A stretch of DNA of 64,000 bases. It comes from Opitutales bacterium (GTDB lineage Bacteria; Verrucomicrobiota; Verrucomicrobiia; Opitutales; UBA953). Each line of letters starts with the position of its first letter. Within the stretch, counting starts at the first letter, position 1. Below, one piece after another: positions 6,127 to 55,154 of this stretch. The notes below the pieces were generated by a model, which was not told the origin of the DNA, did not search any database, and was given only the letters and a program-made list of their open reading frames with translations. The stretch covers positions 1-64,000 of the forward strand of contig JAGBIL010000010.1 in NCBI GenBank assembly GCA_017935025.1. The letters run 5' to 3'. A program made the position numbers and the translations under genes.

Positions 6127-6736
6127 AGCGCCTTCCATCGCTTGATGTTTTCGCAAAACCGGTGTTCTTCCTGCGGGGTGCGGTTAGTCCATTGCGTAGA
6201 ACACCCGGCGTAGAGCATTGCCAGGTGTGCGAACTGGTAAAGGTTTGCGAGCGGCATTTCGAGCATTTCGGAAACGGGTAGGTGAAGTTCGCGCCCGACG
6301 GAGAAAAGCAACGCGGCTATTCCGCCGGGCTCTGCCCGTTTTTTGACGGCGGGAGCGACGGATCCGGGAGTGCCGAGGCTTGAGCGAGGCGTACGGCTTG
6401 CGCATCTCCGGCAAGCGCGGAAAGGATTGCGGGAATTTTGTCCGGCGGGATTGCCGCGCAAAATTCGTCTGCTTTTTCGGCAAGCGCCGCGCGGGAACGG
6501 TAAACGGTTTGGCGTACTTCCTCGAGCGGCGCTGCGTGGATGTAAAGAAATTCGGCGATGTCCGAAATGGAAATTTCGTTACCGGCTTTTGCGGCGGTAT
6601 CGACGGAGGCAAGCGGCGAGCCGATACGTGCGAGCATCGAAAGCGAGGCGAGAGAGATTTTTCGCATTTTCACGCCGGGAGCGATTTCGGTTTCGCCGGG
6701 TGCGAGCATGGATTGATTGAGAATGTCTTGGCGCAT
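6102..6736 (-). CDS. Tail assembly chaperone, -1 frameshift product (GT-type)
   Basis: Two overlapping minus-strand frames sit upstream of the tape measure. The first (6317-6736, 139 residues, MRQDILNQSM to NGQSPAE) is the unshifted G-type product. The codons TCA AAA AAC in that frame contain the heptamer A-AAA-AAC (plus-strand 6338-6344). A one-base backward slip there continues as KKRAEPGGIAALLFSVGRE and runs to 6102. The shifted tail (VGRELHLPVSEMLEMPLANLYQF) looks like real protein, with no own start needed. Programmed -1 frameshifting between two chaperone frames just before the tape measure is a conserved feature of long-tailed phages. A GC stem (CGGGC-AGA-GCCCG) directly follows the heptamer. 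Confidence 0.75.
6317..6736 (-). CDS. Tail assembly chaperone, unshifted product (G-type)
   Basis: The 139-residue zero-frame product starts at the ATG at 6734-6736 and ends at TAG just after the slippery heptamer. It includes a predicted helical middle (ISISDIAEFLYIHAAPLEEVRQ). The start is preceded by the same leader motif (CTAAAAAATCTCCGATTTTT) that precedes the divergent gene at 7018. No Shine-Dalgarno-like purine run is visible there, which is odd. In known phages the unshifted product is made in large excess over the shifted one. Confidence 0.75.
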   Translation of the reverse strand: MRQDILNQSMLAPGETEIAPGVKMRKISLASLSMLARIGSPLASVDTAAKAGNEISISDIAEFLYIHAAPLEEVRQTVYRSRAALAEKADEFCAAIPPDKIPAILSALAGDAQAVRLAQASALPDPSLPPSKNGQSPAE

Positions 6737-7017
6737 AAAAATCGGAGATTTTTTAGTGAATAGTTTCGTCCTTTGTTTTTGCCTCCGGCAAAAACCTTTG
6801 CACTGCGTTATTCATTATTCGTTATTAACTATTAACTAAAAAATCTCCGATTTTTTTTACCATGAACGAACCCATCAAAACATACTAATGAATAGTGAAC
6901 AGTGAATAGTGAATAACGCAGTGTTCAAAGATTTTGCCGAAGGCAAAATCCTTAGCACTGAACTATTCATTATTCATTATTAACTATTAACTAAAAAATC
7001 TCCGATTTTTTTTTACC
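6737..7017. repeat. Tandem composite hairpin elements between divergent phage genes
   Basis: Two related elements lie head to tail. The leader ending CTAAAAAATCTCCGATTTTT(TTT)ACC-ATG occurs as a 156-bp-spaced direct repeat ending at ATGs at 6862 and 7018, and once inverted at 6737-6757 before the minus-strand start at 6736. Between the copies are AT-rich half-palindromes (ATTCATTATT-AACTATTAAC type) and inner hairpins whose stems read TTTTGCC..GGCAAAA. The first copy carries a nine-codon reading frame (6862-6888: M-N-E-P-I-K-T-Y-stop) resembling the first codons of the gene at 7018 (M-K-D-S-I-K-Y). The leader and gene start were apparently duplicated. Confidence 0.8.
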
Positions 7018-7806
7018 ATGAAGGACAGCATCAAATATTTAGGATTCCCGAAATACGGGGAGCAAAAAATCATCACCTCGATTTCCTACGAGGATTCGAT
7101 GAAAGACCGTCCGCGCGGCGTTATCAAATACACCATGCCCGTGCCTTACACGGGGCAAATCCCGGACGAGCCTCCGAACTCGATGACTCAGTTTTTTCCG
7201 GAAAGCATGAAGCTCGTAAAGCGCCATGCAACGGGAACAGATGCCGGAACGACCGAGGTCACGCTTACCTACGAAACTATCGACACCGCGGACATTTTCG
7301 GAAGCGACGAACCGAGCTACAAGTTAAATACGGAAGTCGTAAACGTTTCGATTTTGCTTCACCCGAAGTTTGAAAATATTCCGGAAAAGGAAAAGGTTTT
7401 GCTCAAAGCGTATTCGGACGGCACGCCGCTTGACGCAAAAATCTCGCTTTCGGAAACGAGCCTCGCAATTAAAACGAACGAAAAAAGCACGCTGACGCTC
7501 CTTGCCGCGATGAAGAAGCACGTAACAAGCGCCCCCGGAACCCTGCTGTTTACCAAAATCAAAGCGGGAATAAAAGAGTACAAGGAAGCACGGCTGACGT
7601 GGGAGGAAACCGCCTACTCGCCAACGCTTAAAACGAACGCGGCGAACGTGGGCACCATCGACCGCCCGCCGGGCAACCCGCCGCCCGGGAGCTGGCTCTT
7701 AGAAAAAATCGAAGCCGAGAAAACGCGCAGCGCGAGCGCATGGAAGATCAAAACGACATGGAAATGCGCAGCACCCGGCACCGAGTGGGACCCGGATCTT
7801 TATTGA
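7018..7806 (+). CDS. Phage structural protein, possibly the major tail protein
   Basis: A 262-residue protein with no clear motif (MKDSIKYLGFPKYGEQK at the start, PGTEWDPDLY at the end). It appears mostly beta-stranded, with alternating charged and hydrophobic residues and a Pro-rich turn near 215-222 (DRPPGNPPPG). Its place beside the tail-chaperone pair is where a major tail tube protein would be expected, but it is divergently transcribed from it, so the assignment is weak. The 3' end overlaps the convergent small secreted-protein gene by seven bases. Confidence 0.5.
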   Translation: MKDSIKYLGFPKYGEQKIITSISYEDSMKDRPRGVIKYTMPVPYTGQIPDEPPNSMTQFFPESMKLVKRHATGTDAGTTEVTLTYETIDTADIFGSDEPSYKLNTEVVNVSILLHPKFENIPEKEKVLLKAYSDGTPLDAKISLSETSLAIKTNEKSTLTLLAAMKKHVTSAPGTLLFTKIKAGIKEYKEARLTWEETAYSPTLKTNAANVGTIDRPPGNPPPGSWLLEKIEAEKTRSASAWKIKTTWKCAAPGTEWDPDLY

Positions 7807-8123
7807 ACGCCGGGAAAAGAATCGACGAACTTTACGGAGAAATCACCGAAGCTATCAACGTATTTTACCGTATAGTCCGGAATGTCATCTCCTTCCGCAA
7901 TACGCCAAAGCCCCGGTCCCGTTGCTCCGGAAGAGACAATCTTAACGTGAAGATCCGCAAAAGAATCAACGATTTGAACATCATAATCCGCGAAGCTTCG
8001 GACAATTTTGATTTTTCCGTAACACCTTGCCGCTTTCGCTTTTCGATCGGAATCGGCCCCGACAAAACCGCAGAGCGCAAGCATTGAGAACGCACAAGAC
8101 CAAAGCAGAAATTTTTTCAACAT
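7800..8123 (-). CDS. Small secreted protein with VDSF(A/G)D repeats, prophage cargo
   Basis: I chose the ATG at 8123 (MLKKFLLW), giving 107 residues. A classic signal peptide (LLWSCAFSMLALCGFVGA) is followed by four related units: KIVRSFADYDVQ, IVDSFADLHVKIV, KYVDSFGDFSVK and FVDSFPGVQ. The alternating V/I-x-V pattern suggests a short beta-repeat. It is transcribed against both neighbours, starting 18 bp from the divergent gene at 8142. Such isolated, signal-peptide-bearing genes in prophages are often morons that alter the host surface, but no function can be assigned here. Confidence 0.6.
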   Translation of the reverse strand: MLKKFLLWSCAFSMLALCGFVGADSDRKAKAARCYGKIKIVRSFADYDVQIVDSFADLHVKIVSSGATGPGLWRIAEGDDIPDYTVKYVDSFGDFSVKFVDSFPGVQ

Positions 8124-8141
8124 ATCAGGAGTTTTTGAGTT

Positions 8142-8723
8142 ATGAATAATTTCCCCGAACTGCCTTCCGGATTTCATGCCGGAGACCCCGTCCGCGCCGA
8201 AGACTTCAATAAGATGCTTAACTGGATGCGCGCTGTCGAGAATTTAATCAATAACCGGGCTCCTGAGAGCACGGTTCCCGCAGCGGTCTCCGGCGCTTGG
8301 AGACCGCTGCAACGCGCCCCCTTCGAAGTTGATATCGAGTACGACGAATCCGGGGACCCCGCAAAAATCATCATCGCCCGCGGGAACGTGTTTGCGAAGA
8401 TGGTCCACCCGTCTTTAGACAACGACGGCATGGATTCGGAGGAAGCGATGGAGTACTACAATGCGCTTGCGCGTTGCGAAGTTCCGGAAACGGAAATCCC
8501 ATACGCGGAGAACGCGAAAATCGTGCTTTGCATCTCGGGCGCGGGCTGGACTATGCGCCCGGATGTGTTTGTACGCGTTTGTCTCGAAGAGGACAAAAAA
8601 AACGGGGAAGTCCTTTTCCCTCTTGCCGATCTGCGAACGGAAGGCGGGAATGTCATTGTTACGCAACACCACACCGGGAGCCTCTTTTTTGCGTGGTCAA
8701 ATTGGTCGACCACGGCTTTGTAA
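8142..8723 (+). CDS. Phage-region protein of unknown function
   Basis: A 193-residue soluble protein with a good ribosome-binding site (CAGGAG at 8126-8131). It begins MNNFPELPSGFHAGDPVRAEDFN, a pattern seen at the start of phage baseplate or tail-fibre proteins (the short peptide asking for 'fields' such as DPVRAEDFNKML); this is only suggestive. The C-terminal part is probably beta-rich (GEVLFPLADLRTEGGNVIV). It lies just before the integrase, which is convergent with it across 19 bp. Confidence 0.5.
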   Translation: MNNFPELPSGFHAGDPVRAEDFNKMLNWMRAVENLINNRAPESTVPAAVSGAWRPLQRAPFEVDIEYDESGDPAKIIIARGNVFAKMVHPSLDNDGMDSEEAMEYYNALARCEVPETEIPYAENAKIVLCISGAGWTMRPDVFVRVCLEEDKKNGEVLFPLADLRTEGGNVIVTQHHTGSLFFAWSNWSTTAL

Positions 8724-8742
8724 CGGGCACGCTCCCGCATTC

Positions 8743-9915
8743 CTAAATCTTAAATTCAAGTTGGCCGTTGTCCGGGCGAAGCGCGAAAAAAGCCGTGGAA
8801 TCCTCAAGGGTTTGATTGACGCCCTTGTAGTGGCGTTTGAGCGTTTGCGTATTCGTGTGGCGCGTGGCAAGAATCGTTTTCCCGTCGTCGCAATTGTAAC
8901 TCGCGAGCATCGTCGCGAAGGTGTGTCGCATCACGTTTTGCTTCCAGCTGCAGGATTTTGAAATTTTAAGCTTCGCCTTCGTGTAGGGGGCGGGAACGCG
9001 CTCGCCGAGTTCGGCATTGCGGTAGCGGGTGAGCCACGAGAACACGGCGGCGCCGTTGTCCGGGAGAAACGTCGGCAGGATGAGCCAATCGTCACCGGTT
9101 TTGCAGACGCGGGAACCGTCCTTGTCTTTTGCGGGAACAAGAATGGTGTGTTTTTCGAAATCAATCCATTCCCAGCGCATTTTTCGCGCCTCGCTCGTGC
9201 GAAGCCCGGCAAAGAGGCGCAGGGCGTAATGCGGGGCGAAAGCCGGAAAGTTTTGTTCGATAAAACGCATGGCGAAGGCGGCTTCGCGAAGCGTCCAGAT
9301 CTCGACGCTTTTGTGTTCCGGTCGGGGAAGCAGGCGCGTATCGATTTCGGGCACGCGATTAATCCACCCGCGAGCAGATTTGCACCACGAAAGAAAATTG
9401 CGCGTGTTTGTCCATAAATTTTGGATACTGCGCGGCGAAAGTTGCGGGAACGACAAGAGCCAGTTTTGAAGTGCGCGCTCGTTGACTTCGTAAAGCGGGC
9501 GGCCTGCAAACGCGGCAACGAAACGCCGCATCGTGCAGGTCAGCTCGCGAATGTGTCCGTGCGAACGCCCGGACGCCTCCTGCCATTGAAGAAACGCCGA
9601 AAAGCACTCCGCAACTCCCGGAACGGAAACCGCTTTGGGGCACCCGTGCCGCTTCCAAAAAAGCACGGCTTCGACCGGGTCGAAATCTCCGCAAATTTCT
9701 TTGATTTTCGCGTACGTCGCCCGCGCGCTTGCGTCGAAATAAAGCGGAGCCGTGTCCGCACTCGGCATATTCGCAAAAAACTTTTTGGAAAACGCATTCG
9801 CCGCCGCCAACGTTGAAAAACATCTCGCGATCCGTTTGCCCTTAATCATCTTTTCAAAGACATACGGTTGCCGCTTTCTCCCCGGATAGTAGTTTACATT
9901 CTTTTCCTTTTTCAT
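8743..9915 (-). CDS. Tyrosine-type phage integrase
   Basis: A 390-residue site-specific recombinase. An N-terminal AP2-like or arm-binding part (YPGRKRQPYVFEK) is followed by a SAM-like core-binding domain (about 100-190) and the catalytic domain. The catalytic residues read R239 (AGLRTSE), R330-H331 (VMRHTFAT), H353 (ATRHTN) and the nucleophile Y363 (KRHYKG). The first His of the usual HxxR box is Asn327 here, a small departure that some active integrases tolerate. Its start faces the tRNA-Val gene, about 185 bp away, suggesting integration near that tRNA. Confidence 0.9.
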   Translation of the reverse strand: MKKEKNVNYYPGRKRQPYVFEKMIKGKRIARCFSTLAAANAFSKKFFANMPSADTAPLYFDASARATYAKIKEICGDFDPVEAVLFWKRHGCPKAVSVPGVAECFSAFLQWQEASGRSHGHIRELTCTMRRFVAAFAGRPLYEVNERALQNWLLSFPQLSPRSIQNLWTNTRNFLSWCKSARGWINRVPEIDTRLLPRPEHKSVEIWTLREAAFAMRFIEQNFPAFAPHYALRLFAGLRTSEARKMRWEWIDFEKHTILVPAKDKDGSRVCKTGDDWLILPTFLPDNGAAVFSWLTRYRNAELGERVPAPYTKAKLKISKSCSWKQNVMRHTFATMLASYNCDDGKTILATRHTNTQTLKRHYKGVNQTLEDSTAFFALRPDNGQLEFKI

Positions 9916-10061
9916 ATACCCGTAAAATTAACTGTAAGCTTCTCCTCGGCAATTTAAAAAATTCCGTTTGACAACTTTGGGGCGAAATATAGCATCTTCA
10001 TCGACGCTGAAAACCGAAGAACCCTTTTACTGCCTATTCTCGGTGTTTTCTGCCGGGCACG

Positions 10062-10092
10062 AAAAAAGCCGCAACGTTAAACTTGCGGCTTG
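10062..10092 (-). terminator. Terminator downstream of tRNA-Val
   Basis: The GC stem GCCGCAA / TTGCGGC with loop, read on the minus strand, is followed by TTTTTTC. It lies 9-40 bases past the 3' end of the tRNA gene and is its likely transcription stop. Confidence 0.8.
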
Positions 10093-10100
10093 AAAACAAA

Positions 10101-10177
10101 TGGTGGTCGCGGCAGGACTCGAACCTGTGACCCCAGCAATGTGAATGCTGTGCTCTAACCAACTGAGCTACGCGACC
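10101..10177 (-). tRNA. tRNA-Val (anticodon CAC)
   Basis: Read on the minus strand this folds as a complete tRNA: acceptor GGTCGCG / CGCGACC, D arm AGCTCAGTTGGTTAGAGC, anticodon stem CAGCA / TGCTG around the loop TTCACAT (anticodon CAC), and the T loop GGTTCGAGTCC. The 3' CCA is encoded. It is next to the phage integrase, which makes it a candidate integration target, but no duplicated 3' end can be seen because the other prophage boundary is outside the window. Confidence 0.95.
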
Positions 10178-10360
10178 GAAAAACTGGGTTAAGAGCCTGT
10201 ATTTTTTCCTTTCGCTTGGCAAGAATCTTTTTTCTTGCGCAGATTGTCTTTATCCACGAAGATTTTCGGAGTTTTCATTTCTCGGTCACGCACCTCCCCG
10301 TCTTTCCGCGAGAGAATTTCATCCGTTTTTCGGCGATAAAATTCTTAAAATCAGTTTCCG

Positions 10361-11905
10361 GTGATCGATTACCTGCAAGAAATGGTGTTCATTGTCTACG
10401 CTGTGTTGAGCGTGGTCATTTTCGTTTTCATGTTTTCCCGCCTCCGCAAGATGCGCGGCTACGAAATGGAAGCTCATCACCGCAAACAACAACTCGAAAT
10501 CGCCAAGCGCGAAGCGGAGCTCTCCGCGCGCGACATTCGCTCCCAGGCGGAGGAAAACGCACAAAAGCGAATCGCAGAAGCGGAAAAAATGATTGAAGAG
10601 CGCAAAGCAGCCGCACAGAAAATCGAACAGGCGGCAGCGGAAGTCCAGGCACGCGCAACCGAGCTTTCCGTGAAACTCGATGAACGCCTCGTCGCCCTGC
10701 GCCGGGACGAAGATGTCCTTGCCGCCGAAAGAAAATCGCTCGACGAACTGCGGGAACGCTACGAAAACAAACTTCTCGAAGCCGCAAAACTTTCCCGACG
10801 CGAAGCACGCGAAGCCGCAGTCGCCCTCGAAGTTGAAAACGCGCGAGAGGATACGCGAAAAATCCGCCGCGACATTCTCGAAAAATCGGAAGAAGAATTT
10901 TCTGCCGAAGCGCGCCGCATTCTCATCGACACCATGCAGCGCATCGCTCCGCGCATCAACGAAGAAGAAATGTCGGAGCTCGTTCCGATTCCCTCGGAAG
11001 AAACCAAAGGGCGCCTCATCGGACGCGAAGGTCGCAACATCAAGTGCTTTGAGCAAGTCACGGGAGCGACGCTTATCATTGACGACACGCCGGGCTCCGT
11101 TCTCGTTTCCTGCTTCGATCCGTTCCGCCGCCGCGTCGCCGCGCTCGCGTTACGCCGCCTGATCGAGGACGGACGTATTCACCCGCAAAGCATTGAGCAT
11201 TTTGTAAAGTCCACCAACGATGAACTTCTCGGGAACGCCATCGAAACGGGGGCGAAAACCTGCGAAGACCTCGGCGTTTTCCATGTCGACGAGCGGATTC
11301 TCGAACTGCTCGGAAAACTGCGCTTCCGCCTTTCAATCAATCAAAACACGCTAACGCACTCGATTGAGACGGCGCAACTGTGCGGAATCTTCGCATCGGA
11401 ACTCGGGCTCAACGTCTCGCTCGCAACGCGCGCCGGGCTGTTTCACGACATCGGCAAAGCGCTGGACGCGGAAAACGAAACGGCACACGCTCTTGTCGGC
11501 GCACGCATTTTGAAACAGGCGGGAGAATCGCCTGAAGTGATTAACGCCGTGGAAAGCCACCACCGCGAAGTCGGGCACACCAGCATTTACGGACCGCTCG
11601 TGATGCTTGCCGATTCGATTTCCGCGACGCGTCCGGGCGCGCGATCCAGCACGCGCGAGGGCTACGCCGAACGCATCCGCAATCTCGAATCGATTGCGCG
11701 CCGATTCAGCGGAGTCATCGACGCATTTGCGATTCAGGCGGGACACGAGGTTCGCGTAATTGTTTCCAGCGAGGAAGTCAGCGATAGTGAGACGCGTGTT
11801 CTTGCTCAAAAAATCCGTATGACGATTGAGGATGAACTGATGTACCCGGGGAAAATCCGAGTCGTCGTCATTCGCGAGCTCCGCGTCACGGAAGAAGCCC
11901 TCTGA
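10361..11905 (+). CDS. rny: Ribonuclease Y
   Basis: A 514-residue membrane-anchored endoribonuclease that initiates mRNA decay. An N-terminal transmembrane helix (about 8-26) is followed by a long coiled coil (about 30-195), a KH RNA-binding domain (GRLIGREGRNIKCFEQ, about 215-275) and an HD nuclease domain with the metal motif FHDIGKA near 365. The frame opens at GTG 10361; an ATG seven codons later (10382) is an equally plausible start, and no strong ribosome-binding site decides. Length matches the family (about 510-520). It is monocistronic, flanked by tRNA-Val and tRNA-Arg. Confidence 0.95.
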   Translation: MIDYLQEMVFIVYAVLSVVIFVFMFSRLRKMRGYEMEAHHRKQQLEIAKREAELSARDIRSQAEENAQKRIAEAEKMIEERKAAAQKIEQAAAEVQARATELSVKLDERLVALRRDEDVLAAERKSLDELRERYENKLLEAAKLSRREAREAAVALEVENAREDTRKIRRDILEKSEEEFSAEARRILIDTMQRIAPRINEEEMSELVPIPSEETKGRLIGREGRNIKCFEQVTGATLIIDDTPGSVLVSCFDPFRRRVAALALRRLIEDGRIHPQSIEHFVKSTNDELLGNAIETGAKTCEDLGVFHVDERILELLGKLRFRLSINQNTLTHSIETAQLCGIFASELGLNVSLATRAGLFHDIGKALDAENETAHALVGARILKQAGESPEVINAVESHHREVGHTSIYGPLVMLADSISATRPGARSSTREGYAERIRNLESIARRFSGVIDAFAIQAGHEVRVIVSSEEVSDSETRVLAQKIRMTIEDELMYPGKIRVVVIRELRVTEEAL

Positions 11906-12000
11906 GTGCAGTTGACTCGTTTTTTTTTGCGGGAACGCGAAAAATAAGGCTTTCCGTTCCCGTGTCGAAATTTTACGCTGAGAAAAGACTTTTTCTTCAA

Positions 12001-12075
12001 GTCCCGGTAGTTCAACGGATAGAACCGCGGTTTCCTAAACCGTTAATCCGAGTTCGATTCTCGGTCGGGGCGCCA
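12001..12075 (+). tRNA. tRNA-Arg (anticodon CCT)
   Basis: The acceptor GTCCCGG pairs with TCGGGGC (with G-T pairs). The D stem is GTTC / GAAC, the anticodon stem GCGGT / ACCGT encloses TTCCTAA (anticodon CCT, reading AGG), and the T loop is TTCGATT. The 3' CCA is encoded at 12073-12075. It lies between rny and the convergent ptsI. Confidence 0.95.
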
Positions 12076-12117
12076 GCACGGAAATATTTTCCGGTCAATC
12101 CGATTCTCCGGAAAAAG

Positions 12118-13887
12118 TTATTCGGAATCCGGAAGGATTGAGTTGATGAAAAGCGTCAGGCGTTCCTGAATATTGCGCGGCTCAGGTTCTGCAAGCACAG
12201 TGCGCGCAAGAGCTTGCATCATGTCAAATCTCGTATGCCTGAGAATATAGCGAATTTTCGCCGCGCAACTCGGTGTCATGCTCAGTGCGCTTACGCCCAT
12301 ACCGAGCAGAAGCGGGGCGAACGCGGGATCGCCTGCGATTTCTCCGCAAACGGCACAGGGAATCCCCGCCTTGCGCGCTGCCTTGACGATGAAGTAGATC
12401 AGTTTCAGCACCGCCGGATGGTACGGATCGTAGAGGTGCGAAATTTTCTCGTTCCCGCGGTCCACCGCGAGCGTGTACTGCGTCAAATCGTTTGTTCCGA
12501 TGCTGAAAAAATCAACTTCCTCCGCGATGTCTTCGGCAATGACGGCGGCGGCGGGAATTTCAATCATTGCGCCGACGGAGATATCTTCGTCGAATTTTTC
12601 TCCGCGGGAACGCAATTCGTCTTTCGCCTCTTCGAGAATTTCTTTTGCGGCAACCACCTCCGCGACGGAGCTGATCATCGGGAACATGATCTTTATTTTC
12701 CCGAAAGCCGATGCGCGTAGAATTGCCCGAAGCTGATCTTTGAAAATATCGCGAAATTCCAGACAGAAACGAATCGCGCGGAAACCCATAAACGGATTAT
12801 CTTCCCTCGCCAAGAGGCTACTCGAAATCAGTTTGTCGCCGCCGAGATCAAGCGTGCGAATGACGAGCGTTCCCGTCTTTGAAAGAGCCTCGGCGGCACG
12901 GCGGTATTCCTCGAATTGCTGTTCCTCGTCCGGGAAACGATCATGACGCAGGAAAATGCCCTCGGAGCGAAAAAGCCCGACATTTTCCAAGCGGAATTTT
13001 TTCAGGCTTTCAACATCGTCCGCCCCGCTGATGTTGCCCTCAAGGTGAAATGCTCTGCCGTCTTCGGTCACGTCCGGAAGCTCTATTTCCTTTTCAATCA
13101 TCGCTACGAGGCGGGAGCGCTGACGTGAAATCGTCGTATAACAGGCGAGCGTTTTTTCCGACGGATTGATGTAAACGATTCCTTTTTCGCCGTCGATCAA
13201 GACATCGTCATCCTGCGCGATGCGCAACGACGCGTTCCTCAAACCGACCACTGCCGGAATTCCCATTGCACGCGCCACAATCGCCGCATGGCTCGTGCGG
13301 TTGCCCATATCCGTCAGCAACGCCAAAACATTTGAGCGCTCAAACATCGTCGTTTCCGATGGAGTCAAATCCTCTGCGACGATAACGCGCTTCGTGAAGC
13401 GGTCCGAAACACCCTGTGATTCCACGCCGAGCAGATTTTTCAAAACGCGCTGTGTCACGTCGCGAATGTCCGAAACGCGCTCTTTCAGATAATCATCTTC
13501 CAGCCCGGCGAAAAATTCGATGTAGCGCCGAGCCGTGGAATTGAAGCAGTGTTCGGCGTTCAACCCCGTAGCAGACATTGCCTTGAGGGTTTCTCCGACG
13601 ATCGCAGGATCATCCAAAACAAGCAGATGCGCGTCAAAAATATCCGCCTCCGCCGCGGCACCGCGGGAACGCACGTCCTCCGCCAATCCGGCAATTTGCG
13701 TGCGCGTGGACTCGAGCGCTTTTTCAAAACGGCGGACTTCCGCCTCGCGAGAAGCGGGTTCGATTTTGTAGCACGGAATTTCATCCACGCTTCGCTGCAA
13801 AAAAACAAAAGCTTTCCCCCGAACCACCCCGGGGGAACACCCCACGCCCTGCAAACGAAACTCCTGCTTGTGAAAATCCTCGCCCAT
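12118..13887 (-). CDS. ptsI: Phosphoenolpyruvate-protein phosphotransferase (PTS enzyme I)
   Basis: A 589-residue cytosolic enzyme that takes phosphate from PEP and passes it to HPr. The N-terminal HPr-binding and phosphohistidine domain ends with the active-site motif GNRTSHAAIVAR, with His200. The C-terminal PEP-binding TIM barrel shows LFRSEGIFL, FPMISS and the signature DFFSIGTNDLTQY. Length is normal (about 570-590). No HPr or EII gene is in the window, so the partner may be elsewhere and could serve regulation rather than sugar import. Confidence 0.95.
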   Translation of the reverse strand: MGEDFHKQEFRLQGVGCSPGVVRGKAFVFLQRSVDEIPCYKIEPASREAEVRRFEKALESTRTQIAGLAEDVRSRGAAAEADIFDAHLLVLDDPAIVGETLKAMSATGLNAEHCFNSTARRYIEFFAGLEDDYLKERVSDIRDVTQRVLKNLLGVESQGVSDRFTKRVIVAEDLTPSETTMFERSNVLALLTDMGNRTSHAAIVARAMGIPAVVGLRNASLRIAQDDDVLIDGEKGIVYINPSEKTLACYTTISRQRSRLVAMIEKEIELPDVTEDGRAFHLEGNISGADDVESLKKFRLENVGLFRSEGIFLRHDRFPDEEQQFEEYRRAAEALSKTGTLVIRTLDLGGDKLISSSLLAREDNPFMGFRAIRFCLEFRDIFKDQLRAILRASAFGKIKIMFPMISSVAEVVAAKEILEEAKDELRSRGEKFDEDISVGAMIEIPAAAVIAEDIAEEVDFFSIGTNDLTQYTLAVDRGNEKISHLYDPYHPAVLKLIYFIVKAARKAGIPCAVCGEIAGDPAFAPLLLGMGVSALSMTPSCAAKIRYILRHTRFDMMQALARTVLAEPEPRNIQERLTLFINSILPDSE

Positions 13888-14054
13888 GGCGCATGAGGAT
13901 AAGGCATTTCACCTACGTTGCGATAAAAAACCGTGCCGCTCATCCGGATCCGGATGAAATCCGTCCCCGTCGCAAGAAATTTTCCCGCACACTTTTTTTT
14001 GAGTTTTCAGCCGTGTTTTTCGGCGTTAGAAATCCGTTTTCCCTTTTTCAGAAA

Positions 14055-15269
14055 ATGTTTTCCCGAAGCCGCTTTCCCGCAGACCTCTCGCCCAACCGAT
14101 GGACGCGCATTTTGCGCGAAACGCGGGAACGCGCCCGCGTATCCGGAGAATTGATACTCGACCTCGCCGTTTCCAATCCGACCGCCGTCGGCTTCCTTTG
14201 GAAGCGAGACGAGCTTGCCCGCGCCCTCGCCTCCGGGGCCATCGAAGCCTACTCGCCCTCTCCGCGCGGGAACGCCGACGCACGCCGCGCCGTCGCCGAT
14301 TTTTACAGGGAGACGCACGGAGCCGAAATCTCTCCCGACGCCGTCCACCTCACCGCAAGCACGAGCGAAGCGTATTCATGGCTGGCGAAACTGCTTTGCG
14401 AAAGCGGCGACAACGTGATTACGCCCGCGCCATCCTACCCGCTCATCGCGCATTTGTGCGGCATGGACGGAGTCCGTACGCGAGACTATTTTCTGAATTT
14501 CGACGAAGCGGAAAACCGCTGGGCAACGGATTTTCCCTCTCTCGAAAACGCCATTGATTCCCGCACACGCGCCATTTTCTGCGTTGCGCCGAACAACCCG
14601 ACCGGCTCCGTTTTTTCCGACGACGAACGCGAAAAACTGCTCACGCTTGCGCGGGAACGGAATTTACCGCTCGTTGTCGACGAAGTTTTTCTCGAATACG
14701 CAAACGGAAACTGTTCCGAATACCCCCCGTTGCGTTCCTTCGCGGGAACGGCAGATGCTCCCGTTTTCGTGCTCGGAGGGTTGTCAAAATCTGCCGCGCT
14801 TCCGCAAATCAAAGTCGGGTGGATTCTCACTTGCGGACCGGAAGAATTCGTTGAACAAACGCTCCCGCGCCTGGATTTTATCGCTGATACCTATCTGTCA
14901 TCGAGCGCGCCCGCGCAATGCGCCGTTCCCGCGCTCCTCGCTGCATCCGGTTCTATGCGGGAACGCATCTGCGCGCGGCTGAACGAAAACGAACGCCTCC
15001 TGCACGCGTGGGCAAAGACATCCCCGCACGAGCTTTCCGTTCTCCCGCGCACCGCCGGCTGGTACGCGGTCGTGCGCCTGCCCAAGGGCGTTTCCGAAGA
15101 AGCGCTTTCCGTGGATTTGTTGCGCCGGGAAAACGTCATCGCACACCCGGGCTATTTTTACGACGTGGAAAGCGTTCCCGCTCCGCACCTCGTGCTCTCG
15201 CTGATTACACCTCCGGAGATTCTCGCCGCTGCTCTCCCGCGCATCGATTCCGCCCTCTTGCGCAACTGA
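14055..15269 (+). CDS. Class I/II PLP-dependent aminotransferase
   Basis: I set the start at the ATG at 14055 (MFSRSRFPADLSPNRW). The frame is open upstream to 13893, but that part has no family character. The 404-residue protein has the fold-type I pattern: YSPSPRGNADARRAVADFY near the N-terminus, CVAPNNPTGSVFS (about 175-187), VVDEVFLEY (about 208-216) and the PLP lysine in GGLSKSAALPQIKVGW (about 245). The amino-acid specificity cannot be read from sequence; AspC/alanine-aminotransferase-like enzymes are nearest in pattern. Several GGGAACG words lie within it. Confidence 0.85.
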   Translation: MFSRSRFPADLSPNRWTRILRETRERARVSGELILDLAVSNPTAVGFLWKRDELARALASGAIEAYSPSPRGNADARRAVADFYRETHGAEISPDAVHLTASTSEAYSWLAKLLCESGDNVITPAPSYPLIAHLCGMDGVRTRDYFLNFDEAENRWATDFPSLENAIDSRTRAIFCVAPNNPTGSVFSDDEREKLLTLARERNLPLVVDEVFLEYANGNCSEYPPLRSFAGTADAPVFVLGGLSKSAALPQIKVGWILTCGPEEFVEQTLPRLDFIADTYLSSSAPAQCAVPALLAASGSMRERICARLNENERLLHAWAKTSPHELSVLPRTAGWYAVVRLPKGVSEEALSVDLLRRENVIAHPGYFYDVESVPAPHLVLSLITPPEILAAALPRIDSALLRN

Positions 15270-15290
15270 CACCGAAGAACGTTCCCGCGG

Positions 15291-15308
15291 CTAAATTTCA
15301 ATTTGCGG
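15291..15308 (+). repeat. Intergenic repeat GCTAAATTTCAATTTGCG, copy 1
   Basis: The word CTAAATTTCAATTTGCG lies between the aminotransferase and DUF481 genes, bracketed by GTTCCCGC on the left and GGCGGGAACG on the right. Similar copies occur at 36602, 36716, 54081, 54964 and 63958 (listed separately). Confidence 0.8.
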
Positions 15309-15345
15309 GGAAAGGCGGGAACGCGTTTAATTAACCGTTATTGTT

Positions 15346-16410
15346 ATGCGCCTGCGCTCTCCCATTTCGAAACTTTTCGCCGTATCCGCAATTTTCGCGG
15401 GAACGCTCCCCGTTGCGGCGGACGAAGTGCGGCTTCTCGACGGCTCGTTGGTGCGCGGAGAAATCGTCCATATTCGCAACGGGACAATGACGATTCAGCC
15501 GTCTTTTTCAGAAAAAGCACTGGAAATCAAAATGAGCGAAATCGAAAATTTCGCCACTGACGATCCCGTTTTTCTCATGATGAACACGGATGCCACGTTC
15601 TACGGCACCGTTCTTCCCGGCTTCGGCGACACCGTTTCCATCAGCTCGCCGCACCACGGAATTTCTTCTGCGGGAACGCCGGAAATCTCATGGCTCTGGA
15701 GAAAAGACGATCCCAGCCCATCCGACCTGCGCGTGCAAAAAAAAGAACGCCACTGGGAATTTACCTGCACGGCCGGGCTGAACGTAACCACGGGAACGAC
15801 CGAATCGTTCAACGGTCGCCTCGGTTTCGATGCCATCAATATCGGGGAAGTTGACAAACTCCGTATGTTCTCTTTCCTGCGCTACTCGGAAGTCGAAGAC
15901 ACCGCCTCGGAGGACAATTTCCACATCGGTGCCGATTACGACGATGCCAAGTACAAGCCGATCCTCTGGTACGCAAAAACCGACAACGGCTACGACCGTG
16001 TCGCCAAGCAAAACTTTTTCTCCACCACCTCGCTCGGTCTCGGTTACCGCTTCATCGAAAACGATTTTCAAACTTTCGATGTCCGCCTCGGGGGCGCCTT
16101 CCGCTACGAAGCCTACGAGCGTGATGCCGGCGTGGACGACATCTCGACGCTCGCCGCCGAAATCGGTTTCGACAACGAATTTCGCCTCCCCTTCGGAAAA
16201 GTCATTTCCCACTTCACCTACTCGCCCGCCCTCGAAAATCCGCAGGCGAACTACCGCATTACGCACCACTCGTATCTGCAAACGATTTATTACAACGACC
16301 TTCTCGCCGTCAAAACCGGCGTCACCAACACGTACAACAGCATCGTCGCTATCGGGAACAAAAACCTCGACACGACCGTCTACGTCGAATTGGTCTTCAA
16401 ACTCAAATAA
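15346..16410 (+). CDS. DUF481 family outer-membrane protein
   Basis: A 354-residue exported protein. A signal peptide (residues 1-25, ending PVAADE) precedes a small SH3-like domain (VRLLDGSLVRGEIVHIRNGTM, about 27-90). A beta-barrel-like DUF481 region follows from about 140 on (GLNVTTGTTESFNGRLGFDA, YGYRF-type strands, YVELVFKLK at the C-terminus). The final Phe/Lys-rich strand resembles an outer-membrane insertion signal. The family (E. coli YdiY type) is salt- or acid-induced in some species, but its role is not established. It lies immediately upstream of gatC. Confidence 0.85.
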   Translation: MRLRSPISKLFAVSAIFAGTLPVAADEVRLLDGSLVRGEIVHIRNGTMTIQPSFSEKALEIKMSEIENFATDDPVFLMMNTDATFYGTVLPGFGDTVSISSPHHGISSAGTPEISWLWRKDDPSPSDLRVQKKERHWEFTCTAGLNVTTGTTESFNGRLGFDAINIGEVDKLRMFSFLRYSEVEDTASEDNFHIGADYDDAKYKPILWYAKTDNGYDRVAKQNFFSTTSLGLGYRFIENDFQTFDVRLGGAFRYEAYERDAGVDDISTLAAEIGFDNEFRLPFGKVISHFTYSPALENPQANYRITHHSYLQTIYYNDLLAVKTGVTNTYNSIVAIGNKNLDTTVYVELVFKLK

Positions 16411-16429
16411 TTTTTTCAGCAAAAAGAAA

Positions 16430-16729
16430 ATGTCCGATTCCTCCAACATCGACCTCAACCACGTTTCCGCGCTCGCACGCATCGAGCTTTCCGACGCGGA
16501 AAAACAAAAATTTGCCGGCGATTTTCAGACCATTCTCGGCTTTTTTGAAAAACTCAACGCCGTGGACGTTTCCGCGCTCGAACCCTGCGCCCACGCTTTC
16601 CCGGTTTACAACGTTCTGCGCGACGACGTTCCCGCGGGAACGCTTCCCGTCGAAGCTCTTCTCAAAAACGCCCCCGCCGCCCGCGAAGATCAAATCGTCG
16701 TCCCCCGCGTCGTCGATGACGAAAGCTGA
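16430..16729 (+). CDS. gatC: Glutamyl/aspartyl-tRNA amidotransferase subunit C
   Basis: A 99-residue stabilising subunit of the GatCAB amidotransferase that corrects Glu-tRNA(Gln) and Asp-tRNA(Asn). The family pattern is clear: NIDLNHVSALARIELSDAEK at the start, then ILGFFEKLNAVDVS and a central LRDDV. The ATG at 16430 lies 20 bp after the previous stop. The normal downstream partner gatA is separated from it by a four-helix-bundle gene and a pair of inverted repeats. The palindrome CGTTCCCGCGGGAACG (16627-16642) is embedded in its coding sequence. Confidence 0.93.
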   Translation: MSDSSNIDLNHVSALARIELSDAEKQKFAGDFQTILGFFEKLNAVDVSALEPCAHAFPVYNVLRDDVPAGTLPVEALLKNAPAAREDQIVVPRVVDDES

Positions 16730-16747
16730 AGGCTTTCGCGCTGAGAG

Positions 16748-16770
16748 ATGAGAGCTTAGAGCTGAGAGGT
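16748..16770 (+). repeat. Left inverted repeat of the element around the S23 gene
   Basis: The 23-bp word ATGAGAGCTTAGAGCTGAGAGGT matches 20 of 23 positions with the reverse complement of 17190-17212. The pair flanks the four-helix-bundle gene inside the gat operon. Confidence 0.75.
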
Positions 16771-16786
16771 ATTTGCTTTTAGGAAA

Positions 16787-17182
16787 ATGGAAGAAGTCGT
16801 TTTTTCATTCGAAAAGCTCTACGCGTGGCAAGATTCCATGCGCCTCGTAAAGCTCGTCTACGCGCTTTCGGAAAAATTCCCGTCGCGGGAACAATTCGCG
16901 CTCTCCTCTCAATTGCGTCGTGCCGTCGTTTCCGTTCCCTCAAACATTGCGGAAGGCAACGGACGTTTTTCCGCCAAAGACCAACTCCGATTTTTTGAAA
17001 TCGCCTACGGTTCGTTGATGGAAGTTTTTTGCCAAATAAAAATCGCGCGGGAACTCGACTACATCTCCGAAACGGAGCAATCCGAAATCAAGACCCTCAT
17101 TCTCTGCATCGCCAAATCCCTCAGCGGACTTTCCCGTCATCGCCGCCAGTCAGAACAAACCGAAAATTCCAAAACCATTTAA
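16787..17182 (+). CDS. Four-helix bundle protein (S23 / 23S rRNA intervening-sequence family)
   Basis: A 131-residue protein of the S23 family. The hallmark is the pattern FEKLYAWQDSMRLVKLVYALSEKFP, then SSQLRRAVVSVPSNIAEGNGRFS and a last helix ending in KSLSGLSRH. These proteins pentamerise as four-helix bundles. They are found inside 23S rRNA intervening sequences and beside mobile or retroelement genes (Avd of diversity-generating retroelements is related); their molecular role is not settled. Here it sits between gatC and gatA and is flanked by a 23-bp inverted repeat, as an inserted unit would be. Confidence 0.85.
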   Translation: MEEVVFSFEKLYAWQDSMRLVKLVYALSEKFPSREQFALSSQLRRAVVSVPSNIAEGNGRFSAKDQLRFFEIAYGSLMEVFCQIKIARELDYISETEQSEIKTLILCIAKSLSGLSRHRRQSEQTENSKTI

Positions 17183-17189
17183 CGCATTT

Positions 17190-17212
17190 ACCTCTAAGCC
17201 CTCAGCTCTCAT
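17190..17212 (-). repeat. Right inverted repeat of the element around the S23 gene
   Basis: ACCTCTAAGCCCTCAGCTCTCAT is the partner of 16748-16770 in opposite orientation (three mismatches). It ends 14 bases before the gatA start. Confidence 0.75.
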
Positions 17213-17226
17213 CCATCATCTTTTTT

Positions 17227-18690
17227 ATGAACGAAGTGAATTTTAAAAACGCCTCCGAACTTTCCTCGCTCCTCGCGGAAAAGAAAATCTCCGCGCGGGA
17301 ACTCATGCAGGCGCAACTCGACCGCATTCGCGCCGTCGACGGAAAAATCCGAGCTTTCCTCTCGATTGACGAAGCCGACGCGCTCGCCCAAGCCGATGCC
17401 GCCGACGCACGCCGCGCCGCGGGAACGACTCTCGGTACACTCGACGGCGTTCCCGTCGCCATCAAAGACAATATCGCCGTCAGCGGGCAACCCTGCTCCT
17501 GCGCGTCCAAAATGCTCGAAAACTTTGTTTCGCCCTACGACGCGACGGTGATTTCCAATTTGAAAAAATCCGGAGCCGTGATTTTCGGCCGGCTCAACAT
17601 GGACGAATTCGCGATGGGCTCTTCAACGGAAAATTCCGCTTTCGCGAAAACCGCCAATCCGTGGAACACGAATTGCGTTCCCGGCGGTTCGTCCGGCGGG
17701 TCGGCGGCGGCGGTCGCGGCGGGAATGACGCCGCTCGCGCTCGGCTCGGACACGGGCGGCTCGATTCGCCAGCCGGCGAGTTTCTGCGGCATTGTCGGTT
17801 TTAAACCGACTTACGGAACGGTTTCCCGCTACGGCGCGGTGGCGTTTGCGTCGTCGCTCGAACAAGTCGGCCCGATGGCGCGCAGCGTTGCCGATGTCGC
17901 CGCGCTTTACGACGTGCTCGCCTCGCCCTGCTCACACGATTCGACGGCGCTTCCGGGCGAACGCACACCCACGTTCCCGCAACTTTCCGCTCCCGCGAAA
18001 CCGCGCAAAATCGGTCTGCCGAAGGAATTCTTCGGCGGAGATTCCGCCATCGACGAAGCCGTGAAAAAAGCCGCCGCGTGGTACGAGTCGCAAGGCTGCG
18101 AAATCCGCGAAATCTCGCTCCCGTCGATCGACCTCGCAATTCCGACTTACTACATCATCGCGACGGCGGAAGCCTCGTCCAACCTCGCCCGCTTCGACGG
18201 CATACGCTACACGCACCGTAGCGCGCGCGCGACCGATGCCATCGACATTTTTGCGAAAAGCCGCGGCGAAGGGTTCGGCGAGGAAGTCAAACGCCGCGTT
18301 CTGCTCGGCACCTACGTCCTTTCCGCCGGCTACTACGACGCGTATTACCTGCGCGCGCAAAAAATCCGCTCGCTCATCCGCAGCGAATTTGAAAAAGCCT
18401 TTGCGGACGTCGATTTGATTCTTGCTCCGACAACGCCGGAAACCGCGTTCCCGCAAGGCGGAAAAACCGCAGACCCACTCAAAATGTATCTCGGCGACAT
18501 CTGCACCGTTCCCGCGAACCTGACCGGGCTTCCCGCCGTTTCGCTCCCGTGCGGATTCGATGCCTCCGGTATGCCGATCGGACTTCAACTCATCGGGAAA
18601 GCGCTCGACGACGGCAACGTGCTCGCCGCCGCGCACGCGTTTGAAACCGCACACGATTTTTCCGGTCGCATTCCGACAATAGAAATTTAG
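17227..18690 (+). CDS. gatA: Glutamyl/aspartyl-tRNA amidotransferase subunit A
   Basis: A 487-residue amidase subunit of GatCAB that releases ammonia from glutamine. The amidase catalytic triad is visible: Lys80 in PVAIKDNI, cis-Ser155 in GGSSGGSAAAVAAG, and nucleophile Ser179 in GSDTGGSIRQPASF. I chose ATG 17227; the open frame extends upstream, but the N-terminus MNEVNFKNASELSSLL fits the family. gatB is not next to it, although it often is. The convergent xerD-like gene follows. Confidence 0.95.
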   Translation: MNEVNFKNASELSSLLAEKKISARELMQAQLDRIRAVDGKIRAFLSIDEADALAQADAADARRAAGTTLGTLDGVPVAIKDNIAVSGQPCSCASKMLENFVSPYDATVISNLKKSGAVIFGRLNMDEFAMGSSTENSAFAKTANPWNTNCVPGGSSGGSAAAVAAGMTPLALGSDTGGSIRQPASFCGIVGFKPTYGTVSRYGAVAFASSLEQVGPMARSVADVAALYDVLASPCSHDSTALPGERTPTFPQLSAPAKPRKIGLPKEFFGGDSAIDEAVKKAAAWYESQGCEIREISLPSIDLAIPTYYIIATAEASSNLARFDGIRYTHRSARATDAIDIFAKSRGEGFGEEVKRRVLLGTYVLSAGYYDAYYLRAQKIRSLIRSEFEKAFADVDLILAPTTPETAFPQGGKTADPLKMYLGDICTVPANLTGLPAVSLPCGFDASGMPIGLQLIGKALDDGNVLAAAHAFETAHDFSGRIPTIEI

Positions 18691-18717
18691 CGAAGCACAC
18701 CGCGCTTCACCGGATTT

Positions 18718-19662
18718 CTATTTCCGCGAACGCGGGTGCGTGCGCCGATGCTCGTCGGTAAGACGGGAACGCTCCACTGCGGTATAAATTTGTGTCGTAC
18801 CGATGTCGGCGTGTCCGAGCATTTCCTGAATGACGCGCAAATCCGCGCCGTTGGCGAGCAAATGCGTAGCAAATGCGTGACGCAGTTGGTGCGGGTGAAC
18901 TTTTTTCTCAATCCCGGCGTTTGAAACGATTTCCTGCAAGATCGCCCAAAGAGTTTTGCGTGAAATCGCTTTGCCCCAAGTGCTGATAAAAAGCGCACTT
19001 CCGGTTTTCGATTTGGCGAGGCGCGGGCGCCCGTCTTCGGAAAGATACGCGAAAATCGCTTGGCGGGCACGCCGCCCCACGGGAACGATGCGCTCTTTCG
19101 AACCTTTCCCGCGCACGCGAATGATACCTTCGTCAAAATTGACGGACTGAATTTCGAGCCCGCAAAGCTCGCTCGCGCGCAAGCCGCTTCCGTACATCAC
19201 TTCCAGCATCGCACGATTCCGCAAGCCCTGCGGCGTTTCCGGCATAGGAGTTTCGAGAATTTTTGAAACTTCGCCGACGGAAAGCGTATCCGGCAAAGCG
19301 AGCCGGTTTTTCGGGCGAGAGACGATTTCCGAAAAATCGTCGTTGCGCACGCCGCTTGCCACCAAAAACTTGGCGAGAGAACGCACGGCGGAAAGTTTTC
19401 GTGCGGCGGAACGCGCGGAAATTTCCTCCGCATTGAGCGCGGCAAGCCACGCGGAAAGGTGCTCCGGCTGAACGGCTTTCCACGTTCCCGCGTATTTTTT
19501 TCTCCGCAAAAAATCTCCGAATTGGAGCAAATCTTTTTCGTAGCTCAAAACCGTGTTTTTTGAAAGCCCGCGTTCGAGCTCGAGAAATGCCGTAAAGTCC
19601 TCAATACCCTCGCGGACGGCAGCGGCGGGAACGAAATTCGGAGCTTCGCGGGGACGCGTCAT
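18718..19662 (-). CDS. xerD: Tyrosine recombinase, XerD/XerC type
   Basis: A 314-residue recombinase for chromosome dimer resolution. An N-terminal SAM-like domain (FLELERGLSKNTVLSYEKDL) is followed by a catalytic domain with R162 (GSGLRASELCGL), K187 (GKGSKERIVPV), H258-R261 (HPHQLRHAFATHLL), H284 (LGHADIGTT) and Y293. This is a complete active site. Length fits XerC/D (about 300) with a short basic C-terminal tail (RRTHPRSRK). XerD is favoured by the DLLQFGDFLRRKK and RPKNRLALPDTLS segments, but XerC cannot be excluded. It is probably a housekeeping recombinase, not an integrase. Confidence 0.85.
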   Translation of the reverse strand: MTRPREAPNFVPAAAVREGIEDFTAFLELERGLSKNTVLSYEKDLLQFGDFLRRKKYAGTWKAVQPEHLSAWLAALNAEEISARSAARKLSAVRSLAKFLVASGVRNDDFSEIVSRPKNRLALPDTLSVGEVSKILETPMPETPQGLRNRAMLEVMYGSGLRASELCGLEIQSVNFDEGIIRVRGKGSKERIVPVGRRARQAIFAYLSEDGRPRLAKSKTGSALFISTWGKAISRKTLWAILQEIVSNAGIEKKVHPHQLRHAFATHLLANGADLRVIQEMLGHADIGTTQIYTAVERSRLTDEHRRTHPRSRK

Positions 19663-55008: not shown

Positions 55009-55119
55009 CAATTACAAATCTCGAATTGCAAATTCCGAATGATTACCGGGAACGGAGAAGGTTCCCTATCTCTAAACATACCCGCACTTCATTCGGAATT
55101 TGGAATTCGCTATTCGCAA

Positions 55120-55154
55120 TTAACAGAAATTTGCCTGCGGCAAATTTCTGTTTA
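55120..55154. repeat. Hairpin ACAGAAATTTGCC / GGCAAATTTCTGT
   Basis: A 13-bp perfect stem with loop TGC, followed by TTTACGGGAACGCGG. The stem resembles the inner core (TTTTGCC..GGCAAAA) of the REP-like elements. Confidence 0.65.

Follow-up and report, generated by a model that had tools for sequence, protein, structure and literature searches.

The window analysed here is a 64,000-nucleotide stretch of a contig from an Opitutales bacterium, in which the host genes gatC and gatA are separated by a small gene of the S23 family (Table 1). A sequence-only reading of this DNA had reported such a gene at this place, flanked by 23-bp inverted repeats matching at 20 of 23 positions. Both observations are confirmed exactly, with the repeats at 16748-16770 and 17190-17212. 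The match extends to 38 nt (79%), and both arms are tandem (TGAGAGC)n heptamer arrays in inverted orientation, not one 23-mer. The complete unit occupies 16740-17218, about 470 bases. A non-repeat 15-mer in the left terminal inverted repeat has further copies in the genome. The score of the inverted repeat was matched by one of 20,000 dinucleotide-preserving shuffle pairs (intergenic pieces only), and none of 1,670 places of the same geometry in the window equaled it; chance is excluded as the origin of these repeats.

Table 1. Features of the gat element, its host junction and other heptamer-containing elements of the window
Feature	Position	Strand	Evidence or remark
gatC, upstream host gene	16430-16729	+	Pfam PF02686, 73.4 bits
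Left arm, direct heptamer array TGAGAGA TGAGAGC TTAGAGC TGAGAGG	16740-16770	+	Lag-7 array; period 7 in Tandem Repeats Finder (16740-16768)
Left terminal inverted repeat, 38 nt, including non-repeat subterminal AGAGGTATTTGCTTT	16742-16779	+	Pairs with 17181-17218, 79%
S23/IVP four-helix-bundle gene, 131 aa	16787-17182	+	PF05635
Right terminal inverted repeat, minus-strand heptamer array plus subterminal AGAGGTAAATGCGTT	17181-17218	-	Abuts S23 stop codon
gatA, downstream host gene	17221-18690	+	Pfam PF01425, 519.9 bits
S23-less element or partial copy, (TGAATAG)n-type heptamers	6740-6840		Array 6808-6838
S23-less MITE-like element, inverted TGAATAG heptamer arms	6884-6997		Inverted array pair
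Single heptamer array GATTAAA/GCTTAAA	49948-49980	+	Lag-7 array and Tandem Repeats Finder; partner not found
S23-less element, inverted AATTCCG-type heptamer arrays	55010-55121		Tandem Repeats Finder

The encoded protein belongs to the S23 family, scoring 119.7 bits against PF05635 (curated cut-off 33.8) and 111.7 bits against TIGR02436 (cut-off 24). Its closest solved structure is XCC0516 (PDB 2GSC, E = 3.4e-26), which according to PMC4990558 forms a homopentamer of four-helix bundles. S23 has no known catalytic signature. Orthologous copies have dN/dS = 0.08-0.15 at gat and similar values at atp, the corresponding range for gatA being 0.04-0.07. The protein is therefore maintained, under purifying selection.

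S23 is the sole gene between the arms. There is no transposase gene inside the element, and the criterion for an insertion sequence, possession of its own transposase gene, is not met. An Rfam scan of 6500-18800 returned two tRNAs and no other known structured RNA, and PADLOC gave no match to a known anti-phage system. Carriage of S23 by phage was ruled out, as there was no match to it in 50,697 phage records.

Heptamer arms of other S23 genes

In the source genome (2.03 Mb in 46 contigs), seven S23 genes score above the cut-off and two further matches are weak. All seven clear genes are flanked by inverted heptamer arrays, and the unit differs for each: GTGACAG, GATTAAA, TGAGAGC, GTTTAGT/TGTGGAA, AAGCATC, TGAATAG and AGTGGAG. 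The arms of the fourth are weak. No heptamer arrays were found around L008, the one of the two weak matches that was read. The S23 genes are mostly only ~20-55% identical to one another, so that recent jumps of full elements within the genome are rare in our data.

For a wider set of S23 genes the upstream flank was aligned to the reverse complement of the gene's own downstream flank, with the flanks of other S23 genes providing the null. The own-arm score lay above the 95th percentile of shuffled pairings in 137 of 164 genes and above the 99th in 99 of 164; with gatA as control the corresponding fractions were 1/27 and 0/27. This null is conservative because related elements have arms in common. 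Periodicity at lag 7 (at least 21 of 28 matches) was found in ~30% of S23 flanks and in 1.6% of control windows. Among the other lags from 4 to 12 there was a smaller excess at lag 8 and none elsewhere. The genes tested are mostly from Verrucomicrobiota and Bacteroidota; Planctomycetota, Acidobacteriota and others contribute a few. Arms are also present around the S23 genes of cyanobacterial plasmids, with heptamers TAGGGAG, GGTGACA, GGGAAAA, GAAGTCA and GCTTTTA. The expectation that other S23 genes would have like flanks is thus borne out both within the source genome and in several phyla, with a heptamer that differs from gene to gene.

On the sense strand of S23 the arm is purine-rich at 102 of 112 loci (G 35%, C 10.6%). 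Tandem neighbors of S23 are co-oriented with it in 75 cases and anti-oriented in 20, though these counts are only rough because false ORFs occur on the opposite strand in GC-rich genomes. This co-orientation with the operon would suit either expression through co-transcription or an insertion process coupled to transcription. Together with the purifying selection and the ability of the arms to pair in RNA, it could also be read as the mark of an ordinary operon gene, fixed anciently, whose arms are regulatory hairpins or terminators. Yet the mismatches in the arms show no preference for G:U (120 versus 137), and the RNA fold is ordinary (z = -1.46). Selection on the arms as an RNA stem was rejected on these two grounds, and the lack of G:U preference makes recognition at the level of DNA more likely. 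Moreover, the arms track S23 and not the site, the elements occupy unrelated junctions (gat, atp, clp, nrd, cas and cmr), and the same junctions are found without an element in sister species. A static operon gene is contradicted by the empty junctions and by the movement of the unit described below, and we regard it as barely tenable.

Filled, empty and exchanged junctions

Where S23 genes at least 80% identical lie at unrelated places, the arms are kept and the outer flanks are unrelated. The arm score of such pairs has a mean of 57.7, with 89% at 36 or more, and arm similarity falls with greater S23 divergence. In most of the pairs inspected, blocks of similarity between S23 units stop within the arrays. 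One pair, 94% identical, lies within a single genome (G043, contigs C19 and C92). The S23 units satisfy one criterion for a terminal-inverted-repeat transposable element, a unit with defined ends at unrelated places. Since the same arms are kept at unrelated places and similarity ends inside them, we are confident that the gat unit and its kin move as arm-S23-arm. The earlier proposal that the unit, put at about 465 bp, could be a small mobile element is supported, and was essentially right.

The gatC-gatA junction itself has several states. The S23 element is present in the source genome (G000) and in G005 and G007, and the junction is empty in the same-genus genomes G001, G002, G004 and G006. 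An empty junction had been sought by the sequence-only reading, which would have been refuted by S23 at the same place in all relatives without repeats; this is not what is found. In G003 a Sau3AI/MutH-like nuclease and an adenine methyltransferase replace S23 (L108:2362-3880), and this restriction-modification pair retains the same right heptamer end as the S23 element.

A look for target-site duplications had also been suggested. At gat a duplication is unreadable, the empty sites having diverged too far. One can be read for a related element in Nostocales plasmids that are ~98% identical, where the filled sites (L300 and L307) were compared with the empty ones (L304 and L305). The empty site is AAAAAGTAATTAACAAAT and the filled site AAAAA-GTAAT-element-GTAAT-TAACAAAT, a 5-bp duplication of GTAAT over the stop codon. 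A second comparison (L299 and L315) is compatible with a duplication of TTCTA, but is ambiguous because the arm itself includes TTCT. The remaining comparisons give no readable duplication. Target duplication is therefore seen unambiguously at one filled and empty site, and we do not generalize from it. A decayed S23 element, comprising the left arm and a truncated S23, lies on plasmid pC052_E of Nostoc sp. C052 (L306); the intact element of L300 occupies the same junction.

The elements sit at stop/start junctions. Considering clear arms only, the median distance from the upstream stop codon to the start of the left arm is 5 bp (60 of 79 between -10 and +20). From the end of the right arm to the next ATG it is 8 bp (52 of 63 within 30).

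Other junctions also vary between relatives. At clpP-clpX the element is found only in the source genome, and is absent from seven congeners. At lolC there is an S23 element in the source genome and an S23-less TGAATAG element in G003, G005 and G007. At the HAD-trmL and queE junctions, and at both atp junctions, sister species have different S23 proteins with different heptamers in the same place. In cyanobacteria the cas6-cas4 and cmr2-cmr3 junctions are variously empty or occupied by S23, by a different repeat or by a Uma2 gene.

Such exchanges could in part be due to homologous recombination between strains. Taken further, the cassette might spread solely by recombination between conserved host genes, as allele replacement without transposition; the sharing of the atp and HAD-trmL junctions by different S23 elements in sister species would then be explained, as would the divergence of most full elements within the source genome. 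Recombination alone does not readily account for similar S23 units whose junctions and flanks are unrelated, two of these sites being in the same genome, nor for the 5-bp target duplication at one site, nor for the dispersal of S23-less derivatives within one genome (see below). We consider it quite unlikely to be the whole explanation, and retain transposition of the arm-S23-arm unit.

Several of these junctions have further features. The cas6-cas4 junction of cyanobacterial CRISPR operons (L296, L301, L319 and L321) has received heptamer or palindromic insertions repeatedly, of differing kinds. In a plasmid of Synechocystis PCC 7338 a Uma2 family endonuclease gene (L320:601-1155) lies between cmr2 and cmr3, with no heptamer arms seen around it, and in Picosynechococcus PCC 7003 S23 takes its place. 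A 286-aa DinD-like gene, named by eye without a family search, occurs in G005 (L243:12317-13177) and also in G003. Its junction contains a GCTTAAA heptamer array as well as repeats of the CACGAAT type, and in G000 and G007 a small ORF takes the place of this gene.

S23-less elements and the source of mobility

Heptamer arrays are not confined to S23 genes. In 456 kb of the source genome there are 37 lag-7 arrays, compared with 0-2 at each other lag. Several are S23-less palindromes of ~110 bp with the same ends as the TGAATAG S23 element. In the window, the S23-less element at 6884-6997 has the end GTGAATAACGCAGTG, which is also found in the S23 element at G000:C18:27106-27560. For the gat element, the non-repeat end AGAGGTAWNTGCKTT has 8 exact copies and 14 with at most one mismatch, against 3 for a control. 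Two of the exact copies are the ends of the gat element, and the end recurs in ~7 other elements that are palindromic, 110-120 bp long and S23-less. The flanks of the gat element are therefore not unique in the genome; unique flanks would have counted against the sequence-only reading. Because S23-less units with the same ends exist, it is inferred that something acts in trans.

In sampled stretches, not whole genomes, we found 90 heptamer arrays in 1255 kb from nine genomes with S23, and one, A-rich, in 400 kb from five genomes without it. Two of the genomes with S23, G009 and G034, had no arrays in the 80 kb sampled of each. This co-occurrence is compatible with S23 or its element acting in trans, though the evidence is correlative and covers 14 genomes. 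No clean filled and empty MITE sites emerged from synteny chains linking G003, G005 and G007.

The trans-acting function might be supplied by a reverse transcriptase of the diversity-generating retroelement (DGR) type, with S23 as a relative of its accessory protein Avd, or the transcript might be excised as RNA by cutting at the arms, then copied and reinserted. Avd is likewise a four-helix bundle and distantly homologous to S23, and the co-orientation of S23 with transcription would suit such a route. In the Coxiella 23S rRNA intervening sequence (IVS), heptamers (GACAGAT)2-3 of strain-variable copy number lie upstream of the S23 ORF, at the RNase III cut (PMC4990558). The source genome has a single reverse transcriptase gene, in a DGR-like locus. 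However, the similarity of the gat S23 to the Avd model is weak (21.5 bits, E = 2.1e-4) and well below the cut-off of 80, an RVT_1 match is missing in 23 of 30 S23-bearing relatives, and the arms bear no sign of selection for RNA pairing. The hallmarks of a DGR were not found at the gat element, which has no reverse transcriptase, template or variable repeat, the only reverse transcriptase being on another contig. We judge mobility through RNA unlikely. The reverse transcriptase gene (L248:1258-3486, G000:C33) lies beside an FGE-sulfatase-domain protein and an HRDC-like ORF, an arrangement that resembles a DGR locus.

Alternatively the elements could be MITE-like passengers of a Y1/RAYT transposase, the kind associated with REP sequences. 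There is one Y1_Tnp gene in the source genome, and Y1 matches occur in 34 of 57 relatives. Yet that gene (IS200-like, L249:1380-2040, G000:C6) is flanked by palindromic repeats of its own and not by heptamers, G009 has ten S23 genes and no Y1 match, and the arms are tandem heptamers, not REP palindromes. The criterion for a REP/RAYT system, REP palindromes together with a genomic Y1 transposase, is not met by the gat element, and we think this explanation very improbable. A TGAGAGC-type S23-less element lies downstream of the Y1 locus. Neither a reverse transcriptase nor a RAYT is consistently present, and both were rejected as the obligatory helper. The same inconsistency favors recognition of the arms that depends on S23, with a host or unknown nuclease, although this has not been shown.

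Relation to known systems and implications

The rRNA intervening sequences of Coxiella and Leptospira contain the same protein family, have a similar size (428 nt in Coxiella) and have complementary ends. They differ in lying inside rRNA helices, whereas the gat element is at the stop/start junction of a protein operon. The Coxiella S23 is reported to be decaying and is probably untranslated, in contrast to the maintained protein here (dN/dS ~0.1). Of the criteria for a 23S IVS, complementary ends around an S23 ORF are met and location in a 23S rRNA gene is not. The gat element is thus not an IVS by location, yet is IVS-like in its build.

The heptamer repeats of cyanobacteria and Xanthomonas (STRR; GGGAATC and GGGGATT arrays) are tandem heptamers of the same kind. 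Those of Xanthomonas often form inverted pairs between genes, and these and the Nostoc heptamers have been treated as simple repeats with no general link to mobile elements (PMC4692102). In contrast to that account, the arrays here are the ends of S23 elements and of S23-less derivatives. MITEs and insertion sequences resemble the S23 elements in their terminal inverted repeats, in target duplication (at one site here) and in non-autonomous derivatives that share their ends. The S23 elements differ in having no transposase gene, tandem-array ends specific to each element, and insertion at stop/start junctions.

GxxExxY genes (PF13366, PDDEXK_3; L250-L279) are patchy and multi-copy in the relatives, with inverted ~9-bp tandem arrays on either side (for example CACAGAGTTCACGGAGGACACAGAG) and an arm score above the 95% null at 21 of 29 loci. 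One of them (G049:C20:141515-141862) lies directly downstream of gatA. Like S23, each is a small gene between element-specific inverted tandem arrays; the repeat unit of ~9 bp and the nuclease-family protein set them apart, and they may be a parallel system. Elhai reportedly described small mobile repeats in cyanobacteria in 2008, and an earlier description of the present elements, for example there, is not excluded. Among the publications found on S23 mobility, or on S23 together with heptamers, a single one was of direct relevance, the paper on the Coxiella IVS (PMC4990558).

Comparison of genomes demonstrates that the boundaries of the element lie in the arms, that the element is absent from the junction in relatives, that elements and cargos are exchanged, that siting is at stop/start junctions, that one related site has a 5-bp target duplication, that S23-less derivatives have the same ends and that S23 is under purifying selection. 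Taken as a whole, the observations are probably best explained by a very small transposable element comprising a heptamer array, S23 and an inverted array. The gat unit appears to be among the smallest known mobile elements that carry a gene. We suggest that it inserted between the gatC stop and gatA start codons in an ancestor of part of the genus. Given its operon location, S23 would be expressed by co-transcription. It is inferred to recognize its own heptamer arms, acting in cis and in trans, and with a host or unknown nuclease it might insert the element where a staggered cut is made in a transcribed stop-codon region. The 23S rRNA intervening sequences would then be rRNA-located members of the same class. 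The central assignment, S23 as a mobility protein that recognizes the ends, is an inference that we hold only tentatively.

More doubtful still is the proposal that S23 founds a new class of mobility without a classical transposase. In such a class each S23 would recognize its own tandem-repeat termini and place them at stop-codon junctions in operons that are transcribed, along with derivatives lacking S23 and, in some cases, different cargo. The intervening sequences and cyanobacterial heptamers would be members or remnants of it, and the GxxExxY genes with their ~9-bp arrays a parallel system. The S23 elements as interpreted here offer one explanation for the origin of 23S rRNA intervening sequences, for the scatter of uncharacterized 'four helix bundle protein' genes through operons, and for the identity of the heptamer repeats that abound in cyanobacteria and elsewhere among bacteria. 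They also point to movement without a recognizable transposase, aimed at stop-start junctions where harm would be slight, and they open the function of S23 to direct testing.
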